Positions 5,289 through 15,898 of a stretch of DNA of 51,365 nt are shown here, piece after piece. This DNA is from Candidatus Mediterraneibacter norfolkensis (GTDB lineage Bacteria; Bacillota; Clostridia; Lachnospirales; Lachnospiraceae), in the NCBI GenBank assembly GCA_019120615.1, contig DWUT01000300.1, positions 1 to 51,365 on the forward strand, given 5' to 3'. The position numbers were made by a program, and so were the translations under genes. Numbering within the stretch: position 1 is the stretch's first letter; each line of letters begins with the position of its first letter. The notes beneath the pieces were generated by a model. That model made no database searches. It was not told the origin of the DNA and was given only the letters and a program-made list of their open reading frames with translations.

Positions 5289-8200
5289 TCAGATTCCTTT
5301 GAACGAGAAAGAGAATTCCATTTTTTCATCTGGCCTGAGCAGATATTCCGGATGAGTCGGAGATCCCCAACTGTCGTCTCCGGCAATGCCCATCTGCCCC
5401 ATCGCTGCCCGGATCACCGTGTAATGTACCTCAGGAAGCTCATAGGGATGTCTTGCATTTTCCACCTCGTGGGGCGTGTATGGCAGTGCGGAGAACATCA
5501 TCGGTCCGCTCTTCTCGTCCATCTCAAAGAGCATCCCTCTTCCCTTTCTGTCAGTCACCTTTGCATAGCGCACACCGACTTTTGCACCGCATTCCTGAGG
5601 AACGATGTAGGACGCCATATTGTCCTTCACCAGGTTCCTGTAGATTCCCAGCTTCGCTCCCTTCTGTCTGTCGGCATAAGTCTCTGCCGGTCCGAGACCG
5701 TACCACTCCAGATGGTCATAGTCAGCATTGATCTTGAACATGACTCCGAACTCAGGCATATCGCCCAGCTCTTTCACCGGATCGTAGGAAAGCGTTGTCT
5801 TCACCTTTCCTTCTCCGTCCACTTCATAGGAAAGAGTACATTTCCCTTCCGGTGTCGTCGGAAGGACATATGTAAATGTCACAGTCGCCGTATTTCCGTT
5901 TACCTCCAGTTCCGGCTTCATAGTCCTTGCATAGGTGCTCTCATGATAATCTTTATGGGTCAGATACAGGCTTGCGATCTTCCACTGTGCATATCTTGCC
6001 GGCATAAAGTTTCCGTTGTCGTTATCAGTAGGCGCTCTCCAGAAGTTCGGCTTCGGGATGGCTTCGATCATTTCTTTTCCTGCATATTTATAGGAAACAA
6101 GTCCACCGTTGAGCACGGAGAACAGCACTTCAAAATGCTCGCCCCTCACTCCGATATTGTGGATGCTGCGGATCACTTCGATCTCTTTGTCCACGCTCTT
6201 CTTCCCGCCTTCGACCGTATAGACATACTGTCCGAACGCTACTTCATGACCTGCCTTTGCCCAGATCTTATCTTCCTTAAGTCGGAAAGATACAGTGACG
6301 GCGTACTCTCCTGCCTTCGTCTCCTCCGGAACCGGAAGAGCATAGGTCTTCTCGCTGAGCGGTTCTACATCCGTCTCAAGCGCTTCCTCCCGGATCAGTC
6401 TTCCGTTTCTCTCAACAGTTACGATACATTCAAATGTATTCGTATTGACAAAAAGATTCTTATTTATTACGCGGACATTCTCCCGTCCCGGTTCCGCGGT
6501 AATGTTCTGATAATTGAATTTTACCTCCTGCATCTTCGGAGATGGGTTTCTCTCTCCGCCGTAAGCGATACCGTTGGCGCTGAACTCATAGTCTGTCGGA
6601 CGTTCGCCGAAATCACCGCCATATGCCTGGAACTCTTTTCCATATCTGTCCTTCTTGTAGAGCGTCTGATCGATATAGTCCCAGATAAATCCGCCCTGGT
6701 ACAGGGGCTCTGTGTCTGTCAGATCAGTGTATTTATGCATTGCGCCACAGGAATTTCCCATCGCATGCGTATACTCACAGCAGATAAACGGTTTGCTCCT
6801 GTCTTTTGCAAGGAACCCTTTAATCGACTCAACTGACGGATACATCTGACTTTCCATATCGCTGGTATCATTATATCTGCGGTCATGGAAGATTCCTTCG
6901 TAATGAACCAGACGTGTCGGATCCTCTCTGCGGAAAAACTGTGACATCTCATAGATATCTTTTCCGCCATAAGATTCGTTTCCGCAGGACCAGATCAGGA
7001 TTGCCGGATGATTCTTATCTCTCTGATACATGGAATTGGCGCGGTCCAGCATCATATCAAGCCACTCCGGTCTGTCGTTCGGCACGATCATTGACGTATC
7101 TCCGGTCTCATGCACTGTATCCCAGGAACCATGGGTCTCCAGGTTCGTCTCGTCGATCAGATACAGACCATACTCGTCGCAGAGCCGGTACAACGGAGAG
7201 GAATCCGGATAATGACAGGTACGGATCGCATTGATATTATTCTGCTTCATGGTCACAAGGTCTTTGATCAGTTCTTCTTCTGACACATGCCGCCCCGTCA
7301 CTGAACTGAACTCATGCCGGTTTGCTCCCTTGAACACAATTCTCTTCCCGTTCAAAGTCATGATGCTGTTTTTCATTTCAAATCTGCGGAAACCAACTTT
7401 CTCCGGAATAAATTCCTGAAGTCCGCCCTCTTCGTCGTACACCTCAACAGAAAGGTCATACAGCTGGGGATCTTCCGCGCTCCAGAGTGCCGGATTCTCG
7501 ATCTCCATCGCAATACCGCCGCTCTCGAGGTCAAATTCATTTTCAAAAGATACGTTGCTGTTGGACAGTCTTATCTTTGCCTTTCCTTTTCCCCACACTT
7601 CGGTCCTGATTTCCAGAGTTCCTTTTTTCAGGGACTCATCCGGGATCGCCCGGATCCGGAGATCACGGATATGTACGTCGGGGACAGTATAGAGATACAC
7701 GTCGCGGTAGATTCCTGAAAATCTGTAGAAATCCTGATCCTCGCACCAGCTGCTGCTGGTCCATTTGAACACCTGCGCCGCCAGTTTGTTCACTCCGTCT
7801 TTTATATAGTCTGTCAGCTCGAATTCAGATGGAGTAAAGGTATCCTCACTGTAGCCTACAAACTCTCCGTTCAGCCAGAGGGCAAGTCCGCTCTCCGCGC
7901 CCTGGAAAGAGATAAAGATCCTCTTCCCTTTCATGCGCTCAGGAATCTCAAAATATTTCACATAGCTGGCCACCGGATTAAAACGCTCCGGTATTTCTCC
8001 GGGCAGGATCTCTTCGTGTCCTTCCCAGGGGTACTGCGTATTCGCATACTGAGGCACATCATACCCCTCAAGCTGGATATGAGCCGGAACGTGGATGTCG
8101 TCCCAGTCGCGGCAGTTATAATCCTCGGTCTCAAATCCGGAGATCGTCGAGGCATAGTTGCGCGCATAGTGGAATTTCCACAGTCCGTTCAGGCTCTCTG

Positions 8201-8327
8201 TAAAAGAACTGCTCTCATCACGGTATTCTTCCTCACCGGCATAATAGCGATGATCCGAATGAGCGTCCAGTCTTCCATCACGGAAATACTGCGGATCCTT
8301 TACTTTCTGATAATCAAAACTCCTCAT
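5289..8327 (-). CDS. lacZ: Beta-galactosidase, GH2 with beta-gal small-chain domain
   Basis: CHYPDSSPLYRLCDEYGLYLIDETNLETHGSW, SCGNESYGGK, NFWRAPTDNDNGN. Start placed at 8327 because GGAGG lies just upstream. Confidence 0.93.
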   Translation of the reverse strand: MRSFDYQKVKDPQYFRDGRLDAHSDHRYYAGEEEYRDESSSFTESLNGLWKFHYARNYASTISGFETEDYNCRDWDDIHVPAHIQLEGYDVPQYANTQYPWEGHEEILPGEIPERFNPVASYVKYFEIPERMKGKRIFISFQGAESGLALWLNGEFVGYSEDTFTPSEFELTDYIKDGVNKLAAQVFKWTSSSWCEDQDFYRFSGIYRDVYLYTVPDVHIRDLRIRAIPDESLKKGTLEIRTEVWGKGKAKIRLSNSNVSFENEFDLESGGIAMEIENPALWSAEDPQLYDLSVEVYDEEGGLQEFIPEKVGFRRFEMKNSIMTLNGKRIVFKGANRHEFSSVTGRHVSEEELIKDLVTMKQNNINAIRTCHYPDSSPLYRLCDEYGLYLIDETNLETHGSWDTVHETGDTSMIVPNDRPEWLDMMLDRANSMYQRDKNHPAILIWSCGNESYGGKDIYEMSQFFRREDPTRLVHYEGIFHDRRYNDTSDMESQMYPSVESIKGFLAKDRSKPFICCEYTHAMGNSCGAMHKYTDLTDTEPLYQGGFIWDYIDQTLYKKDRYGKEFQAYGGDFGERPTDYEFSANGIAYGGERNPSPKMQEVKFNYQNITAEPGRENVRVINKNLFVNTNTFECIVTVERNGRLIREEALETDVEPLSEKTYALPVPEETKAGEYAVTVSFRLKEDKIWAKAGHEVAFGQYVYTVEGGKKSVDKEIEVIRSIHNIGVRGEHFEVLFSVLNGGLVSYKYAGKEMIEAIPKPNFWRAPTDNDNGNFMPARYAQWKIASLYLTHKDYHESTYARTMKPELEVNGNTATVTFTYVLPTTPEGKCTLSYEVDGEGKVKTTLSYDPVKELGDMPEFGVMFKINADYDHLEWYGLGPAETYADRQKGAKLGIYRNLVKDNMASYIVPQECGAKVGVRYAKVTDRKGRGMLFEMDEKSGPMMFSALPYTPHEVENARHPYELPEVHYTVIRAAMGQMGIAGDDSWGSPTHPEYLLRPDEKMEFSFSFKGI

Positions 8328-8426
8328 CTGTCTTTTTCCTCCTTTGATTGTTTCATGATCAGCCCGCTCCGCAGCAAGGATCAGATCCCGGAAAAGATCT
8401 GTCCGCAGCGGATTTAACTTAGTTAC

Positions 8427-8493
8427 AGTATAGTACAGATGGACATTCCTGTGTATCATATGTTAAACTAAACAATATAACATTTCGAAACAG
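8427..8493 (-). promoter_or_regulatory. lacZ promoter/operator module, copy 1
   Basis: Aligns without gaps to 15793-15859 (54/67 identical by hand). Reverse strand has TATACT and a weak TACACA at 17-bp spacing. Confidence 0.65.
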
Positions 8494-8504
8494 GAGGTAT
8501 TTTT

Positions 8505-9320
8505 ATGCCCATCATCTTCCGGAGCGCCCCTTTCCATGAACCTTTCACTTTTGATTCCCTCGGAAATAACTGGTATCAGGATCCGGTATCCAGGCCGAAC
8601 GGCTATCCTTTCTACCACTATCTGCAGACAGAAACCGGTACCGGAAGGGTCGAAGCAGACGGAAAGACCTATCTCCTCCGGGAGGGCGAAGGTATTCTTC
8701 TGGCGCCTTTTATCCGGCACTCTTATTCCATGGAAAGCGAGAGCTGGTATACTCTTTTCGCCTCTTTTACAGGAACTGTGGAGAGCGTTCTTCCCCGGAT
8801 CATGGAGAACCGTCCGGTGATACTCACCGGCAGGGAACAGGGCAAACGGATTGCCTCCCTGATCGAAAACTGTATGTCCCTGTGCGGGAAACGTCCTCTC
8901 GATGAACGCGCACTCTCCGTCAACTGTTACAGTATCCTTATGACATTCGTGGACGGCGTCCACACAAGGAAACTGGAACAGGATCCTCTGTATCGGCAGT
9001 ATATCGCGCCTGTAATAGAAGAAATTGAAATCAATTATGCCCTGGATCTGAGCGTGGAGGATCTGAGCAGAAAGGTGTTCATCACTCCCCAGTATCTCTC
9101 CAGGCTGTTCCGGAGATTTCTGGGCTGTTCCACCTACGAATACCTGACTTCCTTCCGGATCAGCCGCGCGAAGGAACTTCTTATCACGGATATCCGGCTT
9201 GAGGTCCAGGATATCTCCCGTCAGACCGGATTTTCCGATCCCAGCCATTTTATCGCAGTATTCAAACGGATCACCGGGATGACTCCTCTCGAATTCCGCA
9301 GGCTCAACCGGGCAATTTAA
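8505..9320 (+). CDS. AraC family transcriptional regulator, divergent from lacZ
   Basis: N-terminal cupin-like sensor; C-terminal DLSRKVFITPQYLSRLFRRFLGCSTYEYLTSFRISRAKELL ... FSDPSHFIAVFKRITGMTPLEFR double HTH. Confidence 0.9.
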   Translation: MPIIFRSAPFHEPFTFDSLGNNWYQDPVSRPNGYPFYHYLQTETGTGRVEADGKTYLLREGEGILLAPFIRHSYSMESESWYTLFASFTGTVESVLPRIMENRPVILTGREQGKRIASLIENCMSLCGKRPLDERALSVNCYSILMTFVDGVHTRKLEQDPLYRQYIAPVIEEIEINYALDLSVEDLSRKVFITPQYLSRLFRRFLGCSTYEYLTSFRISRAKELLITDIRLEVQDISRQTGFSDPSHFIAVFKRITGMTPLEFRRLNRAI

Positions 9321-9370
9321 GAATCATTTCAGCGAAAACGGTTCAAGGGGCTCCAAATGACTTTTGATGT

Positions 9371-9402
9371 AAAAAAGGCCGCCGGAAAATGGCAGCCTTT
9401 TT
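9371..9402. terminator. Bidirectional terminator between convergent genes
   Basis: aaaaaaGGCcGCC-ggaaaat-GGCaGCCttttt. Confidence 0.7.
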
Positions 9403-9416
9403 CTTCGTTATTCTGA

Positions 9417-10256
9417 TTATTTGACAGCACCCGTGATACCTTCTGCAAACTGTTTCTGAAGAACGAAGAAAACGATCATCGTCGGAACAGAACAGAACAG
9501 GACGCCCATCATCAGCAGACCGTAGTCCGTTGTATATCCGGAAGCCAGGTTCGCAATCAGCAGAGGCATTGTCTGCGCATCAGGATTTGTCAGTATTACT
9601 CTTGGCCACAGATACGCATTCCATGAGTTCATGAATGTGATAACTGCTGCAGCAGCATATGTAGATTTCATCATCGGCATGTACATGCGGTAGAAAATCT
9701 GAATCTCATTCAGGCCGTCAATACGCGCCGCCTCCATAGTATCAATCGGGAAGTTCCTGGAATTTTGTCGGAACATCATGATCAGGAACGGCGTTGAAAT
9801 AGACGGAAGGATAAATCCCCAGACGCTGTTTAACAGTTTTGCTGTTGACAGCAGCTTAAACAGAGGAATCATCGTTGCAACCTGCGGGACCATCATTGCA
9901 AGAAGAAGGATAGTAAACACGATATCCTTGCCCTTGTCATGATAAAGTTCAAAACCAAATCCGGCGAGAGAGCAGATCACCAGCGCAAGAAGTGTCTGGA
10001 CAACTGCATACAGGAGAGAGTTTCCCATTGCTCCCCAAAGATCATTGCCCTGGATCAGGTTCTGGAAATTCTGCAGCGCGTAGGTACCCGGAATGATCTT
10101 TCCGCGTGCCACGTCAATAGACTGGTTTGTTGCCGCTGAGATCATCCAGTAAAACGGGAACACGGATATAAATGACCAGATGATCAGGAAAATGTAGGTC
10201 GGGATCAGCCGACGCTGGATCATACTCTTGTTCTTTTTCTCAGTCACGTGTATCAC
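9417..10256 (-). CDS. Carbohydrate ABC transporter permease (MalG type, CUT1)
   Basis: Six-TM permease with EAARIDGLNEIQIFYRMYMPMMKS EAA loop. Confidence 0.9.
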   Translation of the reverse strand: MIHVTEKKNKSMIQRRLIPTYIFLIIWSFISVFPFYWMISAATNQSIDVARGKIIPGTYALQNFQNLIQGNDLWGAMGNSLLYAVVQTLLALVICSLAGFGFELYHDKGKDIVFTILLLAMMVPQVATMIPLFKLLSTAKLLNSVWGFILPSISTPFLIMMFRQNSRNFPIDTMEAARIDGLNEIQIFYRMYMPMMKSTYAAAAVITFMNSWNAYLWPRVILTNPDAQTMPLLIANLASGYTTDYGLLMMGVLFCSVPTMIVFFVLQKQFAEGITGAVK

Positions 10257-11139
10257 CTACTTTCATATTGATTAACGCCAGGATACCCACGACAATAAAT
10301 ACGAAGAACGACATCGCACAGGCGTATCCGAAGTTTGCAACGCCCTGTCCCAGCGAGTTATTGTAAATGTAGTGTGACATGGTGATCGTCGCATTTGCAG
10401 GACCACCGTTTGTCAGGTTTACTGACTCATCGTACAACTGCAGCGTACCGTTGATAGACATGATGAACGTCATGATAATGGTAGGCTTCAGAAGCGGAAC
10501 CGTGATCTTCCAGAATGTCTTCCATCCGTTTGCGCCGTCAATCTTTGCAGCCTCATATACAGAGTACTCAATATTCTGGAGTCCGGCGAGGTAAAATACC
10601 ATGTTGTATCCTGTCCATCTCCAGATCAGAGCGATGATAATGACTGCTTTCGCACTTGCCGCATTTCCGAGGAAATTATAGTTTTCCTGCAGAATATGCA
10701 GATTGACGAGAATCGTATTGATCAGTCCTTCTGTAGCAAACAGAGACTTGAAGATGATGGAGTAAGATACCAGTGAAATCGCACATGGCAGGAATACACA
10801 GGTACGGAACAATCCTTTGAATCTCAGATGTTTGTTATTCAGAAGCTGTGCCAGAAGGATCGCAAGGATCAGCATGATCGGCACCTGGATTATAAGATAC
10901 AGGAATGTGTTGCCTACGGAACGCAGGAACAGCTTATCCTGGAACATTCGCGTATAATTGTTGAAAATCGGTTCGGCCCAGGCCATGTTTGCACTGGAGC
11001 CTGTCTGAAGTGACATAATAAATGCCTGGATCATCGGCCAGAACGCCGTGATCGCGATCAGGATGGTGCCCGGGAGCAAAAATCCCCATCCTGCCGCTGA
11101 CTGCTTCTGCAGCAGTGTCATCCTTTTTTTCTGTTTCAC
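10240..11139 (-). CDS. Carbohydrate ABC transporter permease (MalF type, CUT1)
   Basis: EAAKIDGANGWKTFWKITVPLLKPTI EAA loop; overlaps downstream permease by 17 bp. Confidence 0.9.
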   Translation of the reverse strand: MKQKKRMTLLQKQSAAGWGFLLPGTILIAITAFWPMIQAFIMSLQTGSSANMAWAEPIFNNYTRMFQDKLFLRSVGNTFLYLIIQVPIMLILAILLAQLLNNKHLRFKGLFRTCVFLPCAISLVSYSIIFKSLFATEGLINTILVNLHILQENYNFLGNAASAKAVIIIALIWRWTGYNMVFYLAGLQNIEYSVYEAAKIDGANGWKTFWKITVPLLKPTIIMTFIMSINGTLQLYDESVNLTNGGPANATITMSHYIYNNSLGQGVANFGYACAMSFFVFIVVGILALINMKVGDTRD

Positions 11140-11238
11140 GTAAGAGCCCCTCCTTTTGCAAACAGGCAGGGTAACGGACTCTCTCCGCCCCCCGCCTGCT
11201 TCTCATTTACTCTATTGGCGTTTTTTCAGTTATAAAAC

Positions 11239-12552
11239 TTAGTTGCCCATCTCGAAATTGAGCTGATCTTCTGCATCTTTAAGAGCAGATGCGGTATCTG
11301 CGCCGTTGATGATATTGATGATCGCAGATCCTACATAGTTACGTGCTGAATAGTGATACGGGCTCTGCTCAACGATCGGCACCTTTGTGGTCATCTCAGC
11401 GATATCTGCATAGATCGGCTGATCATTGAAGTACTCAACGCCTTCCTGATAAACCGCAGACTCGCCTGCCGGAGCGTATGTTGTAACAACGCCGCCGTTT
11501 TTCAGTGCATTGTCATATGTAACTGTGCTGCCGCCGAATGTGTAAGCAAGGAAATCTTTTGCGAGATCTACGTTCTGGCAGTTTGCTGTAATATACAGGG
11601 AAGAACCGCCGTTACTTGCATATCCTTCTTCACCTGAGAATGTAGGCATTGATGTGATCTCCCATTTTCCGCTGTTCTCCGGAACTGCTTCGATTGTGGG
11701 GATGATCCAGTTTCCGTTCATAACGCCTGCAACCTGGTCGCCCTGGATTGCTGTGTTTGTGTAATCCTCCCAGCTGTTCGGAAGAAGGCAGATACCCTCG
11801 TTTACAAATTTAACGATTGTATCAACAACCTGTACCAGCGTCTCGTTATCTGTGATGTACGGCTTGCCGTCCTTGAACTGAGATACGCCCTCTGCCTGGA
11901 GCATCATATAAACAAGGTCGTTACCGTCGCTGTTCATACACATCATGTACTTGCCTGTTGCCTCTTTCACATCAAGAGCGATCTGCTCAAATTCGTCCCA
12001 GGTACATCCTGTGAGCTCGTCGATCGTATGTCCTGCCTGCTCCAGAAGGTCAACACGGTAAGCGCAGATAACAGTACCGCCGTCTACCGGCATTCCGTAG
12101 TGTACACCGTCGATCGTGGAGAAGTTCAGTTTCTCAGCTGCGAAGTTGTCCCAGTCAACATCAACATCATCAAGCGGCACCCATACATCCGGATAATCGG
12201 ATACATACTGCTGAATGTAGTGATCCTGGAAAAGAACGATATCCGGCAGTGTGCTGTAGTCTCCTGCAGAAGCAGCTGTTGTGATCGCTGTCTCAACATC
12301 CTCGGATGCTGACTGCTCTATAACCTCAAGGTTGAAGTCAGGATCCACATTTTCCTTGTAGTCAGCTCCGGCCGCTTCCATTGCCGGGATATTGAAGTTC
12401 GGATCCCATGCGTAAAGTGTCAGTGTATGTCCGTCGCCGCCGGATGCGGAATCCCCGCCGCCGGATGAAGAATCACTTCCTCCGCCGCCACAGGCTGCAA
12501 GTGACAGTGCCATAGTGCCTGCCAGTAATGCTGCAAATACTCTTCTCTTCAT
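11239..12552 (-). CDS. Extracellular sugar-binding lipoprotein (ABC transporter)
   Basis: MKRRVFAALLAGTMALSLAACGGGGSDSSSGGG lipobox/linker; SBP family 1 body. Start taken at internal Met 12552. Confidence 0.9.
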   Translation of the reverse strand: MKRRVFAALLAGTMALSLAACGGGGSDSSSGGGDSASGGDGHTLTLYAWDPNFNIPAMEAAGADYKENVDPDFNLEVIEQSASEDVETAITTAASAGDYSTLPDIVLFQDHYIQQYVSDYPDVWVPLDDVDVDWDNFAAEKLNFSTIDGVHYGMPVDGGTVICAYRVDLLEQAGHTIDELTGCTWDEFEQIALDVKEATGKYMMCMNSDGNDLVYMMLQAEGVSQFKDGKPYITDNETLVQVVDTIVKFVNEGICLLPNSWEDYTNTAIQGDQVAGVMNGNWIIPTIEAVPENSGKWEITSMPTFSGEEGYASNGGSSLYITANCQNVDLAKDFLAYTFGGSTVTYDNALKNGGVVTTYAPAGESAVYQEGVEYFNDQPIYADIAEMTTKVPIVEQSPYHYSARNYVGSAIINIINGADTASALKDAEDQLNFEMGN

Positions 12553-12620
12553 AATGCTTGTCCTCCTTTTCTGAATAAGCAATTCTCATTCTGCCTTTAA
12601 CGAATTGCCCTATGTCCTAT

Positions 12621-12675
12621 ATTATAGCAAAGAGATGGAGGTATTTGTGTGCATAACCGGTCGGATAATGTGCAT
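12621..12675 (-). promoter_or_regulatory. Promoter of the ABC operon with AraC-like direct-repeat operator
   Basis: Reverse strand TATAAT at 12621-12626; direct repeats TGTGCAT at 12648-12654 and 12669-12675, 21-bp period. Confidence 0.5.
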
Positions 12676-12878
12676 TTTCGATCATGATTATAGATTTTGC
12701 ACTATTTTCCTGTCTTTGAATCTGATTTTTTATTCATTTTATATTGTTAATTTTCTGACATAATCGTTTTTTTATGTCATATTTCAACATATTCCGCGCT
12801 TTTTTATATTAATAAAGACGATAGGCACGTTTCTGTTTTATGCCATTTTTATATTTCATTCAAAATTTATTCATCTTT

Positions 12879-13394
12879 TTATGCAAAAAAGACCCTGTCC
12901 GGGTACATCCGCTTGATATTCTGCATCATCTCATCCGTAAGATCCAGAAGAAGCTTGATCTTTTTCTTATTCTCCGTGATGATCATTGTATAGTAAGGAA
13001 TATCATCGTCATAAGATGTATAATCAAATTTGGGCAGACGTACAGTCCCCCCCTTGATCCGGTATTTCGCCACTGCGTCATGCCAGTTCGGAGCAAGGAC
13101 TTCCAGTTCCTGAAGGTTAAGCTCATGTCTGTTTTTCCGGTACCGCTTCCCGTAGATCACATCGATTGACAGGGTTCCGTTTTCCAGCGTGTACTCATAC
13201 CCTCTCTGACCGAAGACATCATACACAAAGTACAGCAGAGCCATCAAAAACCCCGGAAGCATAAATCCTCTTGAAAACACGATTCCCATAAGGATAAAGA
13301 GCACTGCAAGGATAATCATGCAAGCGCGGAGCACTCCGCTGAATTTCTTTTTCTTTCTTTCCACCTGTGTGACAATCCTGTAATCTGTATACAT
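12879..13394 (-). CDS. Small membrane protein, YcxB-like
   Basis: Two hydrophobic segments then a soluble beta-rich region; second to start after AraC stop. Confidence 0.6.
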   Translation of the reverse strand: MYTDYRIVTQVERKKKKFSGVLRACMIILAVLFILMGIVFSRGFMLPGFLMALLYFVYDVFGQRGYEYTLENGTLSIDVIYGKRYRKNRHELNLQELEVLAPNWHDAVAKYRIKGGTVRLPKFDYTSYDDDIPYYTMIITENKKKIKLLLDLTDEMMQNIKRMYPDRVFFA

Positions 13395-13400
13395 GTATTC

Positions 13401-14348
13401 TTACCATCCTTCCTCTAAATGTATGTCAAATTTCAGCAGCTCGCGCTCGTAATTCTCCGGCCGCCTTCTCCACTCCATCGGAGTGACTCCCATATACTGC
13501 CTGAAATTCCTGTTAAATGTAGAATTTGTAGAAAATCCACACTTTACCGCAATTTCGGCGATCGGCTCATCTGTTCTCTTCAACTGCTCACAAGCCATCC
13601 TGATCCGCACCTGATTGATATACTCCAGCGGGCCTGTATTCATATACGAAGAAAAAATCCTCCGGAAATGAGTCTCGCTGATATGGCACATGTCCGCAAG
13701 CTCTTTTACCTTGATCGGCTCATTGTAATGAGCGTTGATGTATTCAAGGACATGGGCGATCATATCGGAAAACTTGCTTCCCTCCATCCCGCTCTCTTCG
13801 CGCTCACTGCTTTCCGTGTTGAGCCTTGCGATTCCCGCCAGAAAAGAGGTCAGAAGCCCTGTCGCCTCCTCCTGATAGAACTCTTCTGTCTTCCTCATGA
13901 TGTCAAGGATTGCCCTCACCTGAGCCCCCAGTTCGGGATAATCTTTCTCTCTGAGAAAGCGTGCCCGCGAATTAATCCTTCTTATCATACGTTCTGTGCG
14001 CATGGGATTGTCTCCCCCATGTGCGGCCCGCAGAACTGCATCCGCATCCACGAAAAGGAACTCCCATCTGCTTATCGTCTTATCATCGCTGTTGGTCGTA
14101 TGTGGATAGTTCTGAGGGATCACCGAAAATTCCCCGCCCCCGAACCTGAGATCTTTTTTCCCGAGAGTCAGAACGCCGCTGCCCTCATAACAGTATCCGA
14201 TTTCCATATAATTGTGAAAATGAAGGAAATCCTCATCCCTCCCGTAATGCTGTCTCCATTTTTCTCCGAGAAGAGCGAAGAGCTTCCTCCCCTCCGGCAT
14301 CCTGTAATACCGGAACTCCATTTTTGGCTTTTTCTTCTTTGCGCTCAA
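13401..14348 (-). CDS. AraC family transcriptional regulator
   Basis: HFHNYMEIGYCYEGSGVLTLG cupin; VKELADMCHISETHFRRIFSSYMNTGPLEYINQVRIRMACEQL ... GVTPMEWRR HTH; overlaps MATE gene by 4 bp. Confidence 0.9.
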   Translation of the reverse strand: MSAKKKKPKMEFRYYRMPEGRKLFALLGEKWRQHYGRDEDFLHFHNYMEIGYCYEGSGVLTLGKKDLRFGGGEFSVIPQNYPHTTNSDDKTISRWEFLFVDADAVLRAAHGGDNPMRTERMIRRINSRARFLREKDYPELGAQVRAILDIMRKTEEFYQEEATGLLTSFLAGIARLNTESSEREESGMEGSKFSDMIAHVLEYINAHYNEPIKVKELADMCHISETHFRRIFSSYMNTGPLEYINQVRIRMACEQLKRTDEPIAEIAVKCGFSTNSTFNRNFRQYMGVTPMEWRRRPENYERELLKFDIHLEEGW

Positions 14349-15736
14349 TTGTCTGCACCTGCCTTGCTGTTCTTATCTTGGCGGGCATGGTCTGCAAGCA
14401 GAGAAGCTTTTCTCTCCCAGCCTCCGGAATAGTAACGTACCGCTCCGACAAGCGCGGCACAGATCCATGTAATGGGTGATACAAACCACAGCCCCCTGTA
14501 TCCGAAAATACCAGGAAGAAGAAATGCGCACCCGATCCTCGTGATCACCTCACTGACTCCCATGAGTACAGTTACTGCCACGTCGCCGGATGCCCTTAAA
14601 ATATTATGATAAACCACCAGAACGCCTCCTGCAAGGAAAAAAACAGTAAAAATCCTCATGTATTCCATTCCATACGCAATCGATTCGGGCGTGTCCGTAA
14701 ACGCCTTCATGATCGGCTCTGCCAGGAAGAACACCCCGGGGCAGAACACTCCGTAACAGATAATATTGAGCAGATAAGCGGTTCTTACCCCTTTTTTCAC
14801 TCTTTTCAGATTTCCTGCCCCCGCATTCTGTCCGGCAAAAGTTCCCATTGCCGATCCGATGGCATCGGCAATCTGAAAGCCGAGTCCCTCTACTTTCAGC
14901 GCCACGCCATATGCCACGATCATCGCAGTGCTGTATGTATTGATCACAGCCTGCAGGGTCATGTCCGAAATCGAGATAATACTCATCTGGAGTCCGGTGG
15001 GCAGGCCATAACGTAGGATCTGCCCGATCAGATACCGGTCCGGTTTCCATTCCTTTGCACTCAGCCTCAGAACCGGCAGGATCTTCAGGGCATATGCCAG
15101 GCAGAGACCACCGGACAGGAGCTGAGAAAGCACAGTAGCATAAGCAGCTCCCTGTACCCCCATGGGAATCCAGGATACAAACGCCACATCCAGGAACACG
15201 TTCAGTACGCTGGACAGGATCAAAAACACAAGCGGCACCACAGAATTACCCAGAGCCCGCAGCACTGCAGACGCAAAATTATACAGCATTGTCGCGCCGC
15301 ATCCAGCATAAATGATCAAAAGATACGCCGACGCATCCGGCATCAGTTCTCTGCTCGTCTGAAGGAGACGCAGGAGAGGCTCCGTCGTCGCCGCTCCTGC
15401 TGCAGTGATCAGAACTGCCATCCATATGGATACATGTATACCGGCAGAAAACGTCTCTCTGATCTTTCTGTTTTCTCCTGCCCCGTAAAACTGAGAGATC
15501 ACGATACTCACCCCGGTGGTCACTCCCATCATGACCGAGGTCATCATGTACATCGCAGTCCCGGAGATGCTCACCGCCGCCAGCGCCTGATCCCCCAGAT
15601 ATCTTCCGACGATATATGCATCCGCAAAATTATAGATCCTCTGGAACAGCATCCCCAGAAGCACCGGAAGGGCAAATACTGCCATCTGACGAAATACCGG
15701 TCCATGTGTCATATCGGTGGTTTTTTCTTTTCCCAT
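14345..15736 (-). CDS. MATE family efflux transporter
   Basis: 12-TM protein: MFQRIYNFADAYIVGRYLGDQALAAVSISG, TGVSIVISQFYGAGENRKIRETF. Confidence 0.92.
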   Translation of the reverse strand: MGKEKTTDMTHGPVFRQMAVFALPVLLGMLFQRIYNFADAYIVGRYLGDQALAAVSISGTAMYMMTSVMMGVTTGVSIVISQFYGAGENRKIRETFSAGIHVSIWMAVLITAAGAATTEPLLRLLQTSRELMPDASAYLLIIYAGCGATMLYNFASAVLRALGNSVVPLVFLILSSVLNVFLDVAFVSWIPMGVQGAAYATVLSQLLSGGLCLAYALKILPVLRLSAKEWKPDRYLIGQILRYGLPTGLQMSIISISDMTLQAVINTYSTAMIVAYGVALKVEGLGFQIADAIGSAMGTFAGQNAGAGNLKRVKKGVRTAYLLNIICYGVFCPGVFFLAEPIMKAFTDTPESIAYGMEYMRIFTVFFLAGGVLVVYHNILRASGDVAVTVLMGVSEVITRIGCAFLLPGIFGYRGLWFVSPITWICAALVGAVRYYSGGWERKASLLADHARQDKNSKAGADN

Positions 15737-15792
15737 ATCTGGCTGCTCCTTCTCATCTGTTTATATTTTCCGTCACATTGACGTCTTCTTCA

Positions 15793-15859
15793 AGTATAAT
15801 ACAGACCGGCTTTCATGTGTATCGCATCTCATACTAAACAATACAATATTTCGAAACAG
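15793..15859 (-). promoter_or_regulatory. MATE-operon promoter/operator module, copy 2
   Basis: Gapless homology to 8427-8493; TATACT and TACACA in the same 17-bp register. Confidence 0.65.
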
Positions 15860-15861
15860 AC

Positions 15862-15898
15862 AGAAAAAAGCCGGAAGCTCAATGCCTCCGGCTGTTTC
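15862..15898 (-). terminator. Rho-independent terminator of uxuA/uxuB cluster
   Basis: Reverse strand AGCCGGA-loop-TCCGGCT followed by TTTTTT. Confidence 0.8.

Follow-up and report, generated by a model that had tools for sequence, protein, structure and literature searches.

A stretch of 51,365 nt from Candidatus Mediterraneibacter norfolkensis (the window), a metagenome-assembled genome (MAG) of the Lachnospiraceae (3.58 Mb, 317 contigs), carries the same 67-nt promoter/operator module twice. Copy 1 lies between lacZ and the divergent gene of an AraC-family regulator (AraC1), and copy 2 lies upstream of genes for a MATE-family transporter, a second AraC-family regulator (AraC2) and a 171-aa protein. 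We consider it probable (about 0.8) that AraC1 acts on lacZ and, via the duplicated operator, on the MATE-AraC2-171aa operon, AraC2 then probably acting on an adjacent ATP-binding cassette (ABC) sugar importer. Trans control of this operon by AraC1 is the part that comparative sequence data make well supported. The order in the window is lacZ (-), copy 1, araC1 (+), two ABC sugar permease genes and a binding protein gene (-), followed by the 171-aa gene, araC2, MATE, copy 2, the uxuB terminator, uxuB and uxuA. The features needed for the argument are these (R1 is the site profile described below):

5289-8327, minus strand: lacZ, GH2 beta-galactosidase (NCBIfam NF052611, 1445 bits)
8427-8493, minus strand: copy 1, putative bidirectional operator/promoter module between araC1 and lacZ (69.3 bits with R1, copy 1 being among the 20 sequences from which R1 was built)
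8467-8491, minus strand: operator core of copy 1, GTTTCGAAATGTTATATTGTTTAGT (model columns 3-27), kept in linked and unlinked copies
8427-8455, minus strand: lacZ promoter TACACA-17-TATACT, conserved in orthologs
8440-8469, plus strand: araC1 promoter TGGACA-18-TAAACT with a TG before the -10 (TATG-T-TAAACT), from an independent promoter scan; overlaps the operator and the lacZ promoter
8505-9320, plus strand: araC1, AraC-family regulator with an AraC_binding (cupin-type) domain and a C-terminal helix-turn-helix (HTH) region (Pfam PF02311, PF12833, PF00165)
12879-13394, minus strand: 171-aa protein, third operon gene (no Pfam or NCBIfam family at E<=0.001)
13401-14348, minus strand: araC2, gene of the second AraC-family regulator, with a 4-nt overlap at the MATE stop codon
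14345-15736, minus strand: MATE-family transporter, encoded by the first gene downstream of copy 2 (Pfam PF01554; TIGR00797 above cut-off)
15793-15859, minus strand: copy 2, predicted operator and forward promoter of the MATE-AraC2 operon, reverse promoter decayed (54/67; 36 bits, E=1.7e-8)
15833-15857, minus strand: operator core of copy 2, GTTTCGAAATATTGTATTGTTTAGT, from the comparison of linked and unlinked copies
15869-15893, minus strand: uxuB terminator directly upstream of copy 2, a 10-bp hairpin with a T tail

The earlier note on this DNA had reported a gapless alignment of the two copies with 54 identities over 67 nt, and the same count was obtained on recheck. This is far above chance, since the best other placement of either 67-mer within the window gives only 33-34 identities. 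TACACA-17-TATACT, which the note had placed on the minus strand of both copies, was found in each. The note had also proposed a motif scan of the whole genome, and had reasoned that a block scattered at random positions would be a repeat and not an operator. At <=3 mismatches, the 27-nt block CTGTTTCGAAATNTTNTATTGTTTAGT occurs exactly twice in the 3.58 Mb searched, at these two promoters and nowhere else, and the reversed control pattern gave 0 matches genome-wide. A random repeat or mobile element was thus rejected, as there are just two genomic copies, each at a promoter.

Copy 2 runs into the uxuB terminator, as described before: a hairpin (15893-15869, minus strand) separates it from uxuB, and no AraC gene flanks it on the uxuB side. 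Because this terminator isolates the downstream genes from uxuB, copy 2 would be the natural promoter of the MATE operon. The MATE and araC2 genes overlap by 4 nt and the 171-aa gene begins 6 nt after araC2, so that the three should form one operon. The MATE protein carries two MatE repeats (PF01554, two stretches, 176.9 bits). At copy 1 a minor correction is needed: the longest lacZ open reading frame (ORF) is listed with a start at 8459, inside the module. The likely start is the ATG at 8327, which has AGGAGG in front of it; the promoter then lies about 90 nt upstream.

The module was then followed in relatives, mostly gut MAGs of Mediterraneibacter spp. together with isolates including M. 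glycyrrhizinilyticus An427 (G007) and M. catenae. Alignment of the DNA 5' of AraC1-ortholog start codons revealed one conserved block, GTTTCRAAATNTTATATTNTTTAGTTTAACATATNATACA, followed by GTCYA and then TATAAT. In about 30 genomes of Mediterraneibacter this block separates the AraC1 ortholog from a beta-galactosidase gene, as it does in other genera. A sequence-only profile (R1), built from 20 araC1-linked sites including copy 1 but excluding copy 2, was run on 58 genomes of the genus. Genomes that have AraC1 gave a single strong site (48-70 bits), and in every locus opened this site had AraC1 on one side and lacZ or GH42 on the other. Although copy 2 had been left out of the profile, it came up as the second-best site of its genome (36 bits, E=1.7e-8). 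It stands at the same place in G046 (36 bits) and G042 (32.8 bits); its ortholog in G007 (17.8 bits) lies 7.4 kb from copy 1 of that genome, upstream of the MATE ortholog. Both searches covered 49 genomes of the genus. Of these, the 26 that have a full-length AraC1 ortholog also have strong sites, and only two others gave any: in G029 the AraC1 gene is broken up over contigs, and in G015 a contig ends 113 nt from the site.

A search of 397 genomes of the family gave 17, besides the source genome, with sites at E<=0.001. In most of them AraC1 is adjacent and the opposite gene is lacZ, GH42 or, in G231, a MATE ortholog; most significant copies adjoin AraC1 or directly precede a beta-galactosidase, MATE or lacA-like gene. 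Three weaker matches (G193, G122, G338) have no clear target and may be due to chance. Two further matches were set aside as chance: one in G016 (19.8 bits), a genome that has no AraC1 ortholog, where it overlies a predicted ORF, and one at G026:C123, with no promoter-like continuation.

AraC1 has the two domains expected of an AraC-family sugar regulator: a C-terminal double HTH (PF12833, E=9.8e-23; PF00165, E=1.5e-15), similar to the DNA-binding domain of E. coli AraC (2k9s), and an N-terminal sugar-type ligand-binding domain (PF02311, E=1.4e-9). Orthologs 57-97% identical are present in about half of the sampled Mediterraneibacter genomes, and araC1 stands opposite lacZ or GH42 in nearly all intact loci of the genus inspected, the divergent arrangement of the BgaR type. 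Most site-carrying AraC1 proteins show 85-100% identity in the first HTH recognition region, against 31% for a Lactiplantibacillus relative. This plasmid relative, encoded beside a phosphotransferase system (PTS)-type sugar transporter gene, was set aside, being 30% identical and having a different recognition helix; the best plasmid-borne relatives reach only about 30%. In one clade AraC1 is found beside a GH53 galactanase and its ABC transporter, and in a Blautia relative the MATE-AraC2 genes follow lacto-N-biose phosphorylase; these neighbourhoods point to beta-galactosides. AraC1 may be viewed as a BgaR-like beta-galactoside sensor of the AraC family, the ligand being suggested by gene context. 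Beside the GH53 galactanase and ABC genes we also observed a 617-aa protein without Pfam family (L110 7705-9558; also L068, L078 and others), mostly >90% identical across many genomes. In G007, AraC1 (L069 9001-9807) is 64% identical to the window protein and the adjoining lacZ and permeases are 89-94% identical, which suggests replacement of the regulator gene.

To characterize the module itself, 43 araC1-linked copies were compared with 9 unlinked ones. Conserved letters of the operator core (columns 3-26) are kept at 96% in linked and 92% in unlinked copies; for the forward -35 (columns 38-41) the values are 94% and 100%, and for the forward -10, 92% and 83%. The GTCYA motif, which on the opposite strand reads TGGAC/TAGAC, is the -35 of araC1. 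It is complete in 37/43 linked vs 0/9 unlinked copies (Fisher p=1.4e-6; p=2.7e-4 when counted over five independent loci), p-values that overstate independence because linked and unlinked copies are related by descent. Columns 28, 30, 32, 35 and 36, most of them within the araC1 -10 (TATG-N-TAAACT), are lost or weakened in many unlinked copies; the loss is complete in window copy 2 and mild in G007:C47 and the lacZ copies of genus g58. G116 offers the converse case: its araC1-linked copy, no longer facing lacZ, lacks the forward -10, and its lacZ copy retains it. A linked copy would therefore consist of two overlapping promoters sharing one operator, a weak forward one for lacZ or GH42 and a reverse one for araC1. 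Unlinked copies appear to retain the operator and forward promoter and to lose the araC1 -35, which supports, and is consistent with, a site functioning away from its regulator. The shared promoter module of the earlier note stands in this refined form: copy 1 would be a bidirectional lacZ/araC1 promoter, and copy 2 would keep the forward half only.

The proposed mechanism is as follows. AraC1 would bind the conserved site GTTTCRAAATNTTATATTNTTTAGT, whose edge is 11 nt upstream of the weak -35 TACACA, and inducer-bound AraC1 would activate the forward promoter. In linked copies this DNA also holds the araC1 promoter, which points the other way and has a predicted transcription start near 8476, inside the operator; binding of AraC1 should thus repress araC1 while activating lacZ. 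Copy 2, a duplicate of the module, would have become the promoter of the MATE-AraC2-171aa operon in one lineage and would place it under AraC1 in trans.

Further copies away from araC1 were found in several genomes. G007 has a third operator copy (G007:C47, 46.7 bits; L109 9179-9243) upstream of another MATE gene (7765-9135), whose product is only 22% identical to the window MATE. At G038:C7 a site (33.6 bits) precedes a GH42 beta-galactosidase gene and then a MATE gene, the araC1-lacZ pair being on another contig. A weak site (19.7 bits) precedes a LacA-like acetyltransferase gene at G003:C12; the profile match stopped short of the -10, though a -10 is present at the right spacing. In genus g58 (G116, G434), lacZ has the site with no araC1 nearby, and araC1 is on another contig with its own site. 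G231, of another genus, carries AraC1 (52%) divergent from an ortholog of the window MATE (66%), with the operator between them (L162 / L175). MATE genes number about 20 per genome (41 half-domain matches in this one), or about 0.6% of genes if some 3,300 are assumed, so that repeated landing of the site on MATE genes is unlikely to be chance, the independent cases being few. The retained copies far from araC1 and the AraC1-operator-MATE locus of G231 together favour the note's proposal that one AraC protein would control both promoters.

Several observations weigh against control of the operon by AraC1. Copy 2 has lost 4/30 of the most conserved operator positions, so that affinity may be lower, and its ortholog in G007 is weak (17.8 bits); in G231 the site was found at MATE alone, its lacZ being elsewhere without a detected site; and the contrast between linked and unlinked copies is tempered by the shared descent noted above. 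The link between AraC1 and MATE is also not general in the genus, as no operator was found before MATE-AraC2 in G023, G003 or the Blautia genome, even with filters off. If copy 2 were a duplication remnant with a working core promoter, no longer meaningfully controlled by AraC1, the changes at the operator-side columns 28, 30, 32, 35 and 36 and the stronger decay in G007 would be accounted for. However, most unlinked copies have lost these same columns, which fall on the reverse promoter of araC1; copy 2 retains the operator core with the forward -35 and -10, and it persists in the isolate G007 and three MAGs. We regard a remnant as improbable. Binding of the shared operator by AraC2 (13401-14348) or another AraC paralog, in place of AraC1, would fit the fact that copy 2 precedes the operon containing araC2, and autoregulation is common among AraC proteins. 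Yet the site tracks the presence of AraC1 and abuts the araC1 start codon, many site-carrying genomes (for example the GH53-linked clade) have AraC1 with no AraC2 next to it, and AraC2-linked loci have a different conserved block before the importer genes; such a binder is very unlikely.

The history of copy 2 was examined in the same loci. G023 and G003, whose AraC1 is close to that of the window, have the MATE-AraC2 operon in the same cluster under the promoter TTGACT-17-TATSAT, and among the genomes examined uxuB is directly upstream of MATE only in the four that have copy 2. Since close relatives lack the operator at MATE, copy 2 looks like a lineage-specific promoter capture. In the simplest reading, a duplicated lacZ promoter would have come to stand before the operon in the ancestor of these four genomes. 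G231, with precisely the order AraC1-operator-MATE, suggests another course with the same function, in which copy 2 was left by loss of an araC1 paralog once divergent from MATE. This seems rather unlikely, given that copy 2 is nearer to window copy 1 (54/67) than to the G231 site (39/67) and that in the two close relatives the MATE operon stands under a different promoter, with no remnant of araC1 at that place.

For control by AraC1 to reach the importer, AraC2 would act at a second promoter block. The features concerned are:

9417-11139, minus strand: two ABC sugar permease genes (10240-11139 and 9417-10256; Pfam PF00528)
11239-12582, minus strand: ABC transporter sugar-binding protein (Pfam PF01547)
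12619-12708, minus strand: candidate operator for AraC2, a second conserved promoter block preceding the importer genes

In this block, which is unrelated to R1, AAATAGTGCA is followed by a pair of TGCA boxes spaced 21 nt apart and then by TATAAT. With a profile of the block (R2), 12 of the 58 genomes scanned each gave one strong site; those sites that were placed against examined loci precede the importer binding-protein gene beside AraC2. The block is thus a likely AraC2 site, through which AraC2 would probably switch on the adjacent importer. The regulator cascade of the earlier note keeps its link to the exporter operon; it would not end at the exporter, the proposed order being AraC1, then MATE-AraC2, then the importer. 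The nearest relative, G042, has no R2 site, that part of the cluster being deleted (G042:C7; L113 11007-11879). The deletion, real or an assembly join, creates an in-frame fusion between an N-terminal portion of MATE and a C-terminal portion of the first permease; AraC2 and the binding protein are gone, and both operators stay. The 171-aa gene (12879-13394) is kept between AraC2 and the importer in the AraC2-containing loci examined.

These data outline a regulon and operator for a putative beta-galactoside sensor in a major gut genus, in itself a regulon assignment of a familiar type. They also amount to an unusually clear natural dissection of a bidirectional promoter, in which copies apart from the regulator gene keep one half and one copy apart from the enzyme gene keeps the other. 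MATE transporters, usually annotated as drug pumps, would be tied to sugar catabolism, giving a concrete route to natural substrates. Tentatively, MATE exporters might be a recurrent part of Lachnospiraceae beta-galactoside regulons, serving as an overflow or detoxification valve for galactosides or aglycones. Recruitment would have happened on at least three occasions, for the MATE family of the window, the unrelated G007:C47 MATE and the G038 GH42-MATE operon, through captured copies of a bidirectional AraC operator that can be split. SetA-type sugar efflux transporters of E. coli, which belong to the major facilitator superfamily (MFS), illustrate how an exporter co-regulated with uptake could relieve sugar or sugar-analogue stress; unlike SetA, the exporter under copy 2 is a MATE protein.

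Searches of open-access papers yielded no description of the regulator or its operator, nor of any MATE belonging to a regulon of this kind. The system described that resembles it is BgaR/PbgaL of Clostridium perfringens, in use as a lactose-inducible system, in which a beta-galactosidase promoter is driven by an AraC-family regulator with lactose as its ligand (PMC8151288, PMC10312008). The likeness is one of description, both being AraC-family regulators paired with a beta-galactosidase promoter. The parts of the BgaR accounts considered here include neither trans targets such as MATE-AraC2 and GH42 nor a second AraC step, both of which are proposed for the AraC1 system. In the araBAD-araC region of E. 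coli, too, the regulator and enzyme genes diverge, the activator site ends close to the -35, and overlap with the regulator promoter leads to autorepression. Unlike that arrangement, the AraC1 module packs two physically overlapping promoters into 67 bp, and copies of it are found at other operons.

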